DNA of 56,073 nt from Erysipelotrichaceae bacterium (GCA_013334325.1 JAAXXT010000014.1:1-56073); one strand, 5' to 3'. Positions 41,844 to 46,901 are shown, counted from the stretch's first letter. A program made the numbers and translations. Notes: generated by a model from the sequence alone, not told the origin.

Positions 41844-41863
41844 AAAAAGCCCAATTGGGCTTT
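41844..41863 (-). terminator. Terminator of the aldo-keto reductase gene
   Basis: The palindrome AAAGCCCAATTGGGCTTT followed by TTT on the minus strand. It abuts the Pho box. Confidence 0.82.
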
Positions 41864-42989
41864 AAATAGGCTTAGGTAAATCTTTTACGATTTGTTTAAG
41901 ATCATCGATGATATGTAGATGTTGAGGACATACATCTTCACAGGCGCTACAAGCTTGACACATATCAGCTCTTTCTTCAGCTTTCATATCGATCCAATAT
42001 CTTCGATTGGCTTTCTGTAGATCCTTATAGACCCCATAATCATTCCATATCTTAAAGTTACGTGGGATATTCACCCCAAATGGACAAGGCATACAATACT
42101 CACAACCTGTACATCCATTCTTCGTTCTTGAGTTGACGATCGAGGTAACTTCATCGACGATCGCATTTTCTTCAGGACTTAAGGCCTTATAGTTATTGAA
42201 AGTATTCAGATTATCATCGACATGTTCCATCGTGCTCATTCCACTTAAGATGACTTTTACGTTATCGTGTTGGGCAACCCAACGTAAAGCCCATGAAGAT
42301 AATGATGCTTTAGGATCATAGTTCTTAAAGACTTCAGCGATATCTTTTGGTAAAGCGGCTAAGGTACCTCCTTTAATAGGTTCCATAACGATCAAAGGTA
42401 TACCGAGCTTAACGGTCAAATCATAACCTTTTCTTCCTGCTTGGATATTTGTATCAAGATAATTATATTGAAGCTGACAGAAATCCCAATCACGATAGGT
42501 CGCAATCTTTTCGAATGCAGCATATTCATCATGAAACGAGAAACCCATAAAGCGTATCTTACCTTCTTTTTGTAGTTCAGCGACTTCTTCAGGTACTCCT
42601 AATTTAACCAGTTGATCCCATCGATCTCCATCTAACGCATGAAGCATATAGAAATCTACATAATCGACTTGAAGTCGTTTAAGTTGTTCAGAGAAGAGTC
42701 TTCTAACATCTGCTTTTGTCTTGATCAACCATACAGGTAACTTCGTCGCTAAAATAAATGAATCTCTTTTATGATTCTTTAGCACTTTACCTACAAAAGG
42801 TTCACTATCTCCGTTATGATAAGGATAGGCTGTGTCAATATAGGTTACCCCATTGGCCATTGCCTTCTCTATCATCTCTGTTGCTTTGGCTTCATCGATC
42901 TTCCCATCACTTAAAGTAGGGAATCTCATACAACCAAAGCCCAAGATCGACGGACTAACGTTTAATTTATTAATATTCCTTGTGTACAT
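41862..42989 (-). CDS. Aldo/keto reductase with C-terminal ferredoxin-like domain
   Basis: 375 aa. The N-terminal TIM barrel (about 1-290) has LGFGCMRFP, the catalytic Asp/Tyr pair in YIDTAYPYHNGDSE and YMLHAL. The C-terminal part has two cysteine clusters, CTGCEYCMPCPFGVNIP and MCQACSACEDVCP, for [4Fe-4S] binding. Such iron-sulfur AKRs are common in anaerobes and may exchange electrons with ferredoxin instead of only NAD(P)H. The substrate is unknown. Monocistronic; divergent from the DUF1893 gene. Confidence 0.93.
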   Translation of the reverse strand: MYTRNINKLNVSPSILGFGCMRFPTLSDGKIDEAKATEMIEKAMANGVTYIDTAYPYHNGDSEPFVGKVLKNHKRDSFILATKLPVWLIKTKADVRRLFSEQLKRLQVDYVDFYMLHALDGDRWDQLVKLGVPEEVAELQKEGKIRFMGFSFHDEYAAFEKIATYRDWDFCQLQYNYLDTNIQAGRKGYDLTVKLGIPLIVMEPIKGGTLAALPKDIAEVFKNYDPKASLSSWALRWVAQHDNVKVILSGMSTMEHVDDNLNTFNNYKALSPEENAIVDEVTSIVNSRTKNGCTGCEYCMPCPFGVNIPRNFKIWNDYGVYKDLQKANRRYWIDMKAEERADMCQACSACEDVCPQHLHIIDDLKQIVKDLPKPI

Positions 42990-43068: not shown

Positions 43069-43497
43069 ATGACCCTTCTTCAAAAAGCAATCGATCGTTT
43101 AAAAAATGAACACCTTAGTTGTATCGCTACAAGAGGCGAATTTGAATACATCAGTATCGATAAAGGTCTAAAACCTTTATTGAAACCTTTAAGAGAAAAC
43201 CCTAACTTCTTTAAAGATACCGTCGTTATCGATCGTATCATAGGCAAGTCTGCAGCTTTTTTACTCATCAAAGGAAAGATAAAAAGTATCCACGCGATTA
43301 CCTTAAGTCAACACGCCTTAACCTTATTAGAAAAACACATGATTCCTGTGACCTATGAAAACTTGGTTCCTTATGTGGTCAATGCGACTCAGACCGGAAT
43401 GTGTCCTATGGAGGCAACTGTTATTGAGATTGAAGATGTTGAAGAAGCATACCTTGCCTTAATCAATAAGGTCAACGAGTTGATGGCTGCAAAATAA
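43069..43497 (+). CDS. DUF1893 family protein (TM1506-like deaminase fold)
   Basis: 142 aa. The family core reads IGKSAAFLLIKGKI, ITLSQHALTLLEKHMIPV and ATQTGMCPMEATVIEIED. The known structure (Thermotoga TM1506) has a cytidine-deaminase-like fold, but the typical catalytic zinc motif is changed to a CPME-type ending and no activity is proven. AAAGGAAAAT precedes the ATG. Monocistronic, ending at a strong terminator. Confidence 0.85.
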   Translation: MTLLQKAIDRLKNEHLSCIATRGEFEYISIDKGLKPLLKPLRENPNFFKDTVVIDRIIGKSAAFLLIKGKIKSIHAITLSQHALTLLEKHMIPVTYENLVPYVVNATQTGMCPMEATVIEIEDVEEAYLALINKVNELMAAK

Positions 43498-43524
43498 AAC
43501 ATTTCCGAAGAAATGTTTTTTTTA
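43497..43524. terminator. Bidirectional terminator at the right boundary of the DUF1893 gene
   Basis: Stem AAACATTTC, tetraloop CGAA, GAAATGTTT, with a T-run on the plus strand and A/T-rich flank on the other. The same 9-bp stem recurs at 46961-46982 on the far side of the radical-SAM cassette. Confidence 0.88.
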
Positions 43525-44928
43525 TTAAACGAAAATGATCTCCGCCTTAATGGCCCCATTTAAGGTTTGAGTTAAAGGATTATCGGTTAAGACTTCTTCT
43601 ACACTCATCATCTCAAAGTTAGATTCGATGGCCTTCTTTTCACTAGAAGTGCTTTCTTTAAGCGAGGCAATACCTTTTTCAGCACCGACCTCAAAGATGC
43701 CTTTGGTTAAACTGGTTCCTATCGCACTGGCTGTACTGGTCCCTGCGATGGATGCGCTTAATGAACCTTGGAGTACAGTATTCAATACGCTTGTCGCATC
43801 TTGAGCCCAAGGTGTTTCTGATAATTGACCCTTTAAGGCATTCGCACTAACGCTTATTAAAGCCTTTGCGAGATGTTTAGACTTATTCTTAGAATCTTTC
43901 TTCGCATCTTTGATTCCTGTAACCATGGTTTTAAGGGCACTGTAGGCGATCTTAAATTGTGGTCCCGCAAGATCAGAGAGACCTTCTAATGCGGTTTCAG
44001 TTCCATACTTAAGTGAAGTTGAGGCATTCATCGATAAATCAAAACGTGTCGCATTGATCAGATCAGATCTCATCTTAGAGGTCTTTTTCTCATAAGCTTC
44101 CATCATCTTGAGCTTATCTGCTTCGTTGAGGCTTGATACTTCTAACTCAAAGGCTTTACGTTCACTGGCGATCTGCTTCATCAATAAAGTAGTCTCATCA
44201 CTTAAGTGAAGTTCATCTTTAGAAGTAGCTTTATAAGATAAGGTCTCATTGGTACTTAATAGTGCTTCATTGAGTTCTGCCTTACGTGAATCCATTTCTT
44301 CTGGTGATCTTAGCCATAGACCTTCATCACCTGTGACTTTATAATACGCTGCGTTCAAATTATTTAAGAGAGATTCTTGTTCATTCAAAGTAATCAGATC
44401 TGCTTGGTTCTGTTGGATCCAGGCATCTCTAGAGTTGATCAAAGCTGTCTTTTCTTGACGACTTTTCTCAACTGATGATTTTTGAAGTTCAAGTTGTTTG
44501 AGTTGGAATTTTAGATATTCTAAATAATCTTCATTCTTTTTCTGAGCTAATGTATAATCACTGCTTGTTTTATCCGCAGTCTTATCATAAGTTTCCCAGT
44601 TCTTTTTAACTTGAGACATTTCTTGAGATAAAGATGAAGATGCTTTATCTAGTGTAGATAAGGCTTCTGTGTAGGCATCTTTGACGATCTTCTCTTGAGT
44701 ACGAGCATCTTCTAAAACACCTTCTGTGATTCGAGATGCGATCTTTTCTGATTCTAAGAGCATATCATCATAGAGTTTATCTTGGACTTGATCTGATGAT
44801 AAAGAACGATAGCCATTGGTTACCGAATCAAGCATAAACAATAAACCTACGGTCACCGCACTATCCGCTAAGACGACCCCAAATACTTCACTGGAAGAGT
44901 TGGTTACGTGATCTACTTTTATTTTCAT
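43525..44928 (-). CDS. Coiled-coil protein with N-terminal VTNSSSEVF motif, putative radical-SAM substrate
   Basis: 467 aa, no family recognised. It begins MKIKVDHVTNSSSEVF, a Ser/Asn-rich motif (residues 8-16) that I recall, in the form F-V-(S/T)-N-S-S-S, at the start of various uncharacterised Bacillota proteins. A hydrophobic stretch follows (about 15-35). Residues about 50-210 and 240-290 are rich in heptads (coiled coil; many Lys, Glu, Gln). The C-terminal third (about 300-440) is rich in Ala, Gly, Ser and Thr with amphipathic helices. There are no cysteines. It overlaps the radical SAM gene by ATGA and has its own AGGAG. A protein modified at its N-terminal motif by that enzyme is my inference. 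Confidence 0.6.
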   Translation of the reverse strand: MKIKVDHVTNSSSEVFGVVLADSAVTVGLLFMLDSVTNGYRSLSSDQVQDKLYDDMLLESEKIASRITEGVLEDARTQEKIVKDAYTEALSTLDKASSSLSQEMSQVKKNWETYDKTADKTSSDYTLAQKKNEDYLEYLKFQLKQLELQKSSVEKSRQEKTALINSRDAWIQQNQADLITLNEQESLLNNLNAAYYKVTGDEGLWLRSPEEMDSRKAELNEALLSTNETLSYKATSKDELHLSDETTLLMKQIASERKAFELEVSSLNEADKLKMMEAYEKKTSKMRSDLINATRFDLSMNASTSLKYGTETALEGLSDLAGPQFKIAYSALKTMVTGIKDAKKDSKNKSKHLAKALISVSANALKGQLSETPWAQDATSVLNTVLQGSLSASIAGTSTASAIGTSLTKGIFEVGAEKGIASLKESTSSEKKAIESNFEMMSVEEVLTDNPLTQTLNGAIKAEIIFV

Positions 44929-46013
44929 ACTGTGCTCTCCTGAAAGGTCTTAGAGACCCTATCACATAAGGTAATATTACTTACGATGGGACAACCTCCT
45001 AAACAAGACTCTTGATCACCACATCCCACACAACGATGATTCTGTTTGGATCTAAAACGTTCAAAGGGTTCTGATTCCCATGCCTCTTCGATACTGAACT
45101 GATCAAGCGATACTGCATAGCTTTCATCTTTCTCAAAACTACAAGGGACCAGTTTATTATCTGGGGTGATGTAGGCTGAGAATCGTCCTGCTTCACAAGC
45201 TTCTATACATGTTGGATCGATCTGTTGGGTCAAATTGAGAATCGCTGGAACACAACAGCTATCAAAGCCTGCTTTATTGGCGATCTTTGCTTGATCAAAC
45301 AAAGAGAAGAAATGAATTACTTTAGAATCCTTGATGTCTAAGACTTGACTAAGTGATCCAAAACCAACTGGTTTATGAAGCAAGAAGATGACTCGATTGA
45401 TGCCTGTAGGCCAAGCATCTTTTTCGATCAGATCGATGGCTTCATCGATAGAGGAATTCGATAAGACATAGTGTATGTTTGTTTTTATCCTAAACTCAGT
45501 CAACATTTTTATAGCGCTTAAGGTATAAGTATTTCGATACCAACTCACTGCGACTGCCCCACAGTATTGTTTGATGGCGGGAAGTAAAGAAGGATTTAAT
45601 CCATACCCAGAGGTCGTAAAGTTAGGTGTGATCCCATGATGATGGGCATAGGCAAGAAACTTGATGATGTCTGGATGTTGATCAGGATCTCCTCTTCCAC
45701 CTAAAGCTACTTGAAAGGTCTTGTGTTGAGCTTGATCGATGATCTTGGTGAAGGTCTCATAAGACATATGAGCCTCTTGGATCTCACCACCCTTTTGATA
45801 ACACTCTACCCCAGAAGATAGACATAGCCCAGAGTTTCCGTGATCGCAAGATCCCATGATCCCTATATCCAATAATTCAGGAAAACTACTTCGATAAGGG
45901 TCTTTACCTGTGTCTAACATCTGATCAGTATAGACATTACTACGCGCTCCTTTTCCTGTTTGTGGATCAAAGAAGACCGCATAACGATAGTTACTATCCC
46001 AACGCTTTTTCAT
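44925..46013 (-). CDS. Radical SAM/SPASM-type protein with unusual cysteine spacing
   Basis: 362 aa. The first cysteine group follows strand PELLDIGIMG and reads C56-x7-C64-x6-C71 (SCDHGNSGLCL, GVECYQKGG), not the standard CxxxCxxC. The barrel after it fits radical SAM proteins: ALGGRGDPDQHPDI in place of the GGE motif, then NFTTSGYGL. The C-terminal SPASM-like region has CIEACEAGRFSAYITPDNKLVPC and HRCVGCGDQESCLGGCP, for auxiliary [4Fe-4S] clusters. SPASM enzymes usually modify peptides or proteins. The gene overlaps the membrane-protein gene by 20 bases and the coiled-coil gene by 4. Confidence 0.8.
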   Translation of the reverse strand: MKKRWDSNYRYAVFFDPQTGKGARSNVYTDQMLDTGKDPYRSSFPELLDIGIMGSCDHGNSGLCLSSGVECYQKGGEIQEAHMSYETFTKIIDQAQHKTFQVALGGRGDPDQHPDIIKFLAYAHHHGITPNFTTSGYGLNPSLLPAIKQYCGAVAVSWYRNTYTLSAIKMLTEFRIKTNIHYVLSNSSIDEAIDLIEKDAWPTGINRVIFLLHKPVGFGSLSQVLDIKDSKVIHFFSLFDQAKIANKAGFDSCCVPAILNLTQQIDPTCIEACEAGRFSAYITPDNKLVPCSFEKDESYAVSLDQFSIEEAWESEPFERFRSKQNHRCVGCGDQESCLGGCPIVSNITLCDRVSKTFQESTV

Positions 46014-46812
46014 TTTTAACGACCGGTTTTGTGGAGGTAAAATTTAAGAGAAGTCCAATCCCAATTAATATGAAACCACAGATATAGCCTCCATACATAA
46101 TCTGCATAAAGATAAGTGGGGCATCCAATAATAGCCCTAAGATAAAACCACTTAAGATCACATAAGTATGGAAATCTGTATATCGATATTTCAATTTTAG
46201 TGCTTTCGCAAGATCAGAGAAAATCAATCGAGCGGCTTTAAAGATCCAATGTTTACGACCTTCTCCTAAAAGATATGAAATCGTAAACGAGATGACTAAG
46301 GCAATAAAATATTTATCGAACTTATTACGAGCCCCACTAAAGCGACTATAAGACGCAAAATTATTTGCGATGATAAGACCTACCCCAGCCCCTATACATA
46401 AATACACATTGGCTTTCTGTCTTAGGGCACTCAGTGAATTCAATAACTCTGGTTTTAATTGTTTAATGGGTCTAAAGGCTTCTTTTAAACCGTTCTTTTG
46501 AATACTCTTAAACAATCTTTTCCCAAAGGTAAAGATGATGATCCAATAGATGGTCTTAGGCAAGATATCATTATAGGTCGCTGTTAAGAAGATGACTGGA
46601 CCCGCAATAAAACTAGGGATGTATTGACTGATTGCGCTCCACCAAAAAGTAAATTGAAAGAGTAAAACGATGCCTAGTTGGATTGCCAATGACTTGACTC
46701 TTTTTGGGAGTTCTTTTAAAGCGGCTTTAAAAAGAACAGATAGCCATGAGGAAAGGGTCTCCTTTGGTTTAGCTGCTTGTGGTCCAATCTGCGGTTTGGA
46801 TGATGTGGTCAT
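45994..46812 (-). CDS. Multi-spanning membrane protein of the radical-SAM cassette
   Basis: 272 aa from ATG 46812, which has CAGGAG six to seven bases upstream; an upstream in-frame ATG at 46857 lacks one. The N-terminal 35 residues are polar (TTSSKPQIGPQAAKPKET). About five or six membrane segments follow, separated by a basic central loop (about 105-145) with many Lys and Arg. It matches no family that I recognise. It is first in a three-gene operon behind a near-consensus promoter. A transporter, anchor or immunity-type role for the product of the other two genes is possible but unproven. Confidence 0.65.
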   Translation of the reverse strand: MTTSSKPQIGPQAAKPKETLSSWLSVLFKAALKELPKRVKSLAIQLGIVLLFQFTFWWSAISQYIPSFIAGPVIFLTATYNDILPKTIYWIIIFTFGKRLFKSIQKNGLKEAFRPIKQLKPELLNSLSALRQKANVYLCIGAGVGLIIANNFASYSRFSGARNKFDKYFIALVISFTISYLLGEGRKHWIFKAARLIFSDLAKALKLKYRYTDFHTYVILSGFILGLLLDAPLIFMQIMYGGYICGFILIGIGLLLNFTSTKPVVKNEKALG

Positions 46813-46901
46813 GATGATCTCCTGTGTCAACACTTGTTGAAAGAAAATATGGATCAAAAAGACAATGAATTATGAACGTAATTGAGTCTACTTACGACTT
46901 A

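Follow-up and report, generated by a model that had tools for sequence, protein, structure and literature searches.

Radical S-adenosylmethionine (SAM) enzymes with a SPASM domain are known to have short peptides or a few single proteins as targets. The SuiB/SuiA, KxxxW and WgkB maturases, for example, act on short precursor peptides and produce a Lys-Trp cross-link. Here we analyzed a 56,073-nucleotide stretch of an Erysipelotrichaceae bacterium genome (GCA_013334325.1, JAAXXT010000014.1:1-56073; hereafter the window), which encodes a SPASM enzyme in a three-gene cassette together with a membrane protein and a 467-residue protein that begins with a conserved tag. The association of this enzyme family with the tag suggests a hitherto undescribed system for the chemical modification of the N-termini of many different proteins.

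Among known systems, SuiB is both the closest solved fold to a structural model of the window enzyme (Z 25.9) and its best profile match among PDB sequences (E 4e-14), while the WgkB and KxxxW models weakly match many members of the enzyme family. In contrast to the precursors of these maturases, the tag has a core without W or K, and the client is a full-length protein. The sactipeptide and thioether maturases SkfB and CteB share the SPASM fold (Z 23.5 and 20.5), but their thioethers need cysteine; the 467-residue protein has none, which sets it apart from sactipeptide and ranthipeptide precursors and excludes a thioether on the window tag. Likewise, anSME (Z 20.5) is a SPASM enzyme acting on Ser or Cys of a large protein, whereas the recognition sequence and client differ here and the cassette contains no sulfatase. 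A classical ribosomally synthesized and post-translationally modified peptide (RiPP) has a short precursor, a leader, a C-terminal core and usually a peptidase or exporter. Here the client is 467 residues long with its conserved stretch at the N-terminus, as a first-pass annotation of the window had argued in separating it from short RiPP precursors, and the conserved cassette includes no peptidase or exporter part.

The nearest concept in print is FxsB/FxSxx-COOH of the VMAP conflict systems, in which a radical SAM/SPASM enzyme is paired with a short conserved C-terminal motif that is released by a peptidase, with NTPase (nucleoside triphosphatase) conflict genes adjoining (PMC7159879). In the present system, the motif is strictly N-terminal and, as far as the gene sequences indicate, is retained on the body. 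Radical SAM genes in T4-like phages have been mentioned, without the tag (PMC9960720, PMC5332604). A literature search, with preprints and most subscription journals outside its range, found no description of the tag motif or the enzyme-tag pair; the sole occurrence of VTNSSS was in a food-peptide paper. NCBIfam and Pfam hold no curated family for the pair. In PHROGs v4, phrog_7293 matches the window enzyme (E 1.6e-25) and a relative at locus L015 (E 3e-99), and phrog_7397 matches the tag ends of proteins at L014 and L015; these are separate families, both labelled 'unknown function', with no link to each other or to bacterial relatives.

Linkage of an enzyme family to an N-terminal tag

Relatives of the window enzyme were collected from public genomes and viral contigs, yielding 80 cellular and 80 viral loci; many of these loci come from metagenome assemblies, and fragments are frequent among the viral contigs. 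A neighbouring open reading frame (ORF) begins with the tag in 75 of the cellular and 60 of the viral loci. The first-pass annotation had coupled the enzyme to a large protein through an N-terminal motif, (F/H)V(S/T)NSSSxxF, and had proposed such a neighbourhood search; its outcome supports that coupling. All 251 tag genes measured lie on the same strand as the enzyme gene, with a median gap of 0 bp in cellular loci. Five cellular loci are tagless: in four of them the enzyme sits at or near a contig end, and in two the tag genes are on another contig of that genome. When the search was reversed to start from the tag, the enzyme was recovered in 33 of 48 tag-bearing viral contigs. In addition, nearly all tag genes adjoin the enzyme in 28 genomes from many phyla.

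The co-occurrence of enzyme and tag is exact in three genome samples. In the phylum of the window, the tag scores above 40 bits in four of 392 genomes, which are the same four that encode the enzyme in a 296-genome class sample (Bacilli); the best other tag match in the phylum sample is 25 bits, compared with at least 41.7 in the positives. Tag and enzyme are found in the same five of 245 Clostridia genomes and in the same two of 289 genomes of Alphaproteobacteria. Positives are few in each sample, and sequences of some of them had gone into the profiles. With the two Clostridia genomes that fed the enzyme profile set aside, a match of three with three among 243 genomes would arise by chance with a probability of about 4e-7.

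The tag is present in 254 proteins encoded near the enzyme in 144 loci, 231 of these proteins being unique. It spans 17 residues with the consensus MK[IV][KR]xD[FYH][VI][ST]NSSSx[SN][FY], typically MKIKxDFVTNSSSxSF. An aromatic residue (F, Y or H) stands exactly at position 7 in 253 of the 254 proteins. Across the 231 unique proteins, N10, S11 and S12 are invariant; 228 also have serine at position 13, and 229 have F or Y at position 16. Cysteine is rare within the tag. In the window, the tag occupies residues 1-17 (MKIKVDHVTNSSSEVFG; 44878-44928, minus strand) of the 467-residue protein, with the core V8-T9-N10-S11-S12-S13 at 44890-44907. It scores 45.5 bits against a 20-residue tag profile and is the sole match to that profile in the genome.

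The tag is shared by otherwise dissimilar proteins. The bodies behind it fall into 42 groups without a BLAST link, a grouping that leaves room for deep relationships between them. In the largest family of bodies that could be aligned, mean identity is 77% over the first 18 columns and 25% thereafter. Most tagged proteins are small (100-200 residues) and soluble. Sequence comparison establishes the enzyme family and the tag, together with the constant position of the tag and its linkage to the enzyme: one family, unnamed so far, is associated with an exclusively N-terminal tag found on about forty unrelated kinds of protein, and the pairing ranges across at least ten bacterial phyla, conjugative plasmids and phages growing on laboratory E. 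coli.

In a structural model of one small tag protein (predicted local distance difference test, pLDDT, 88.4), residues 1-9 are disordered and a strand starts at residue 13, which suggests that the tag is accessible. The best PDB match of this model had a Z of 3.3 among the chains compared, so the fold gives no function. A paralogue of two tandem tag proteins (L317, 2080-2559) has a decayed tag (MYYHNEYAPNSSPTKF) and is perhaps a client that lost it. The strings PNHVTNSS and PNQVTNSS in four tagless viral loci lie deep inside short frames and not at a start, and were judged to be chance.

The radical SAM/SPASM enzyme

The window enzyme (44925-46013, minus strand) has 362 residues, with a first cluster motif of C56-x7-C64-x6-C71-Y and SPASM cysteines from C273. 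It scores above the cut-offs for SPASM models PF13186 (30.0 bits; cut-off 21.5) and TIGR04085 (30.6 bits; cut-off 27), and its sequence includes CVGCGDQESCLGGC, which has the CX2CX5CX3C pattern. The SPASM domain is partly missing in some phage members of the family. An AlphaFold2 model of the window enzyme (mean pLDDT 93.8) contains the radical SAM barrel and aligns nearly full-length with solved radical SAM enzymes. Besides the four maturases already compared, its nearest solved folds are PqqE (Z 20.8) and ChlB (Z 20.6); these neighbours are mostly peptide- or protein-modifying SPASM enzymes. None of the named NCBIfam radical SAM equivalogs (e.g. PqqE, MftC, GeoRSP) scored over its cut-off, the best reaching 44.6 bits against a required 380.

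By motif, the window enzyme is an atypical member of the radical SAM enzymes and is assigned through its fold and relatives. At E 0.001, PF04055 matches 51 of 66 family members. Cluster-motif spacing differs inside this one family: CX3CX2C occurs in Alphaproteobacteria, Bacteroidota, Cyanobacteria and others, CX7CX2C in relatives from T4-like phages, and the CX7CX6C form of the window is common to the Bacillota clade, with other forms also present. The first and third cluster cysteines never vary in the 66-row alignment, where invariant positions include C56, C71, C253, C273 and C291, plus S-F after C291. The invariant C253 raised the idea of an epimerase, which is a less likely reading: in a profile alignment this residue falls on the SuiB cysteine just ahead of the SPASM cysteines, making a cluster ligand more likely than a hydrogen donor.

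Proposed function of the tag and alternatives

We infer that the tag is the substrate of the enzyme. On this reading, to which we give a probability of roughly 0.8, the SPASM radical SAM enzyme recognises and oxidatively modifies the N-terminal tag on unrelated proteins. The exposed, disordered N-terminus of the client would bind the enzyme, and the 5'-deoxyadenosyl radical, with auxiliary clusters handling electrons, would alter at least one core residue between residues 7 and 16. The chemistry and cellular role are guesses. Given the aromatic residues at positions 7 and 16 and the invariant N-S-S, an intra-tag cross-link or Ser oxidation is most plausible; the likeliest products would be side chains cross-linked through a C-C or C-O bond, or an oxidized core Ser, with epimerisation less likely. 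If the tag is modified, this would be a general protein-modification system that has escaped notice owing to the annotation of its tagged proteins as hypothetical. Clients could then be found directly, the chemistry on the N-S-S core would probably be new, and a connection to candidate anti-phage defence operons would be established. The tag might then be a portable N-terminal code, with a single radical SAM enzyme modifying in trans many unrelated proteins that its 17 residues mark as clients; phages would use it for up to ten small proteins of their own and bacteria for STAND-type defence operons and membrane complexes, which would make the modification maybe a currency of phage-host conflict; we offer this wider idea tentatively, at somewhat less than even confidence.

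Several observations weigh against modification of the tag by a radical SAM enzyme. Twenty viral enzyme loci show no tag in the stretch examined, and none of 12 tagless viral contigs searched whole (5-42 kb), which are maybe fragments, has one. The window enzyme scores 18.4 against PF04055, below the cut-off of 29.5, and its first-cluster motif has the odd spacing CX7CX6CY in place of the canonical CX3CX2C. Serines beyond S13 differ in number between tags, with E-V at these positions in the window, which means that some serines must be dispensable. Finally, the tag could be a mere docking site.

This last possibility is the strongest alternative, although we consider it unlikely. The tag would be a docking or recruitment motif through which a tagged carrier, activator or regulator binds the enzyme, and modification would take place in the body or on a third partner. 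The N-terminal half of the tag, MK[IV][KR]xD, does resemble a recognition sequence, the core is framed by aromatics, and at its N-terminus the enzyme has an additional strand-rich portion that aligns with the corresponding region of SuiB. However, 42 body groups unrelated by BLAST offer no obvious shared target beyond the tag, and invariance is strongest in the N-S-S core rather than in the leader-like half.

It is considerably less probable that the enzyme produces a small molecule, or modifies some other target, and that the tag proteins are sensors of the product or immunity proteins against it. The operons of some relatives also encode STAND NTPases, protease-like domains and metallo-beta-lactamase (MBL)-fold proteins, as defence systems do, and there are weak matches to prokaryotic viperins. 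Such a product would leave unexplained why the same 17 residues stand at a fixed distance from the start of dozens of unrelated small phage proteins. In addition, profile and fold are closer to SPASM peptide modifiers than to viperin, whose model stays far under its curated cut-off; a viperin-like function was rejected on the weakness of these matches.

A signal in DNA or RNA at gene starts, such as a translation or regulatory element, would fit the fixed position of the stretch relative to the start codon, but is hardly credible: all six serine codons are used at S11-S13, drawn from both the TCN and AGY families, which are not interchangeable by one synonymous step, so selection acts at the protein level, and the start codons themselves vary (ATG, GTG or TTG). 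Chance adjacency of the enzyme to a common low-complexity N-terminus is equally remote since, for all that Ser-rich N-termini are generally common, strong tag matches are confined to enzyme-bearing genomes among the 392, 245 and 289 sampled.

Gene architectures and the window cassette

The enzyme and the tag occur in four gene architectures. Architecture A (53 loci) opens with a NACHT/STAND-type NTPase that has an N-terminal SMEK or trypsin-like domain and is sometimes accompanied by an MBL-fold protein; a small untagged protein (F0a), a tagged protein (F0b) and the enzyme follow. F0b is a distant paralogue of F0a (profile match probability 97.5%). The operon, often including the MBL-fold protein, is conserved in L018-L021 and L045-L101. 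Its NTPase matches Avs2 models and its MBL protein matches LmuA and Avs1a models, resembling AVAST (Avs) and Lamassu-type systems, and these STAND-bearing operons look like a candidate anti-phage defence system. To our knowledge, Avs and Lamassu-type systems have not been described with a radical SAM enzyme or tag protein, and PADLOC 2023 has no model of its own for the enzyme or tag protein of the STAND operon. The window cassette has neither a STAND NTPase nor an MBL protein, and so falls outside the Avs/STAND type. Architecture C, in Lachnospiraceae and kin, comprises the enzyme and tag protein alone.

In phages (architecture D), one enzyme accompanies up to ten tag proteins, usually downstream; on viral contigs L118, L141, L149 and L165, different small tagged proteins follow in series behind a single enzyme gene. 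Among 50,697 phage records, the enzyme occurs in 174 and two tag proteins in 174 and 175, with the same host genera; the carriers are T4-like phages of Klebsiella, Enterobacter, Cronobacter, Citrobacter and Escherichia, including RB16, whose record is HM134276, and RB43, and are closely related, so these records do not count as independent events. In Klebsiella phage PMBT1 (L314; 954-1424 and 4809-5324), which encodes the enzyme along with two tag proteins, the genes for enzyme and tags lie about 20 kb apart, a separation suggesting that the enzyme probably acts in trans on tag proteins. These T4-like phages of Enterobacteriaceae offer a tractable laboratory model.

Architecture B is that of the window: a membrane protein (F5), the enzyme and a tagged coiled-coil protein (F4). 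All three genes are on the minus strand. F5 (45994-46812) has 272 residues from an ATG at 46812 that is preceded by AGGAG; the ORF listing offers a longer TTG start at 46857, but the ATG is preferred. It contains hydrophobic segments and matched no Pfam or NCBIfam family; similarly, neither it nor the tag protein has a curated NCBIfam match. F4 (43525-44928; start MKIKVDHVTNSSSEVF) is rich in coiled coil. The genes overlap, F5 and the enzyme by 20 bp and the enzyme and F4 by 4 bp (ATGA), and upstream lies a promoter (46929-46902) with TTGACA-N16-TATAAT and an extended TG that matches the consensus at 12 of 12 positions. Weaker promoter-like sites are not enriched in the region (8 found, 10.4 expected from shuffles). 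An inverted repeat with a T run on both strands (43496-43525), between the cassette and a convergent 142-residue gene, is a probable shared terminator as read from the sequence; it is not among the sites listed by a terminator scan that asks for three G-C pairs. The three genes look like one transcription unit.

These details bear out the first-pass annotation with respect to the overlapping genes, the shared near-consensus promoter and the cysteine-free protein with an N-terminal NSSS motif. The cassette is more than a chance arrangement: the order F5, enzyme, F4 is repeated in nine loci, of which the window and L022 belong to one species, and the tag stands beside the enzyme family on 42 body groups. 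The cassette as such is real, but the system proved wider than the cassette, with most of its tagged proteins small and soluble. F5 is directly upstream of the enzyme in nine loci and F4 follows the enzyme in ten. Enzymes of the window type form a supported clade together with those of two Clostridia loci, L192 and L193.

Directly after the tag, F4 has a hydrophobic, membrane-spanning-like segment (residues 15-33; 44830-44886), with a Kyte-Doolittle mean of 2.18 over 19 residues in the window. The mean hydropathy of this segment is 1.96 across the F4 family, compared with at most 0.69 in the other tagged families measured; it is also present in L193. The product in the window would be a modified tag adjacent to the membrane, carried by a long coiled-coil protein whose membrane partner is conserved. 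This segment and the co-made membrane protein suggest that the modified tag probably serves the assembly or function of a membrane-bound complex.

In L193 (4693-6846), the tag is found on a 717-residue protein with a HELAH metallopeptidase-like motif; an untagged relative of this protein with a signal-like start is encoded upstream of a window-type cassette in L192 (1216-4107). The window cassette adjoins a gene for an aldo/keto reductase whose Cys-rich C-terminal part is ferredoxin-like (41862-42989), a neighbour that is kept beside the cassette in L013 and L022 and is probably ordinary.

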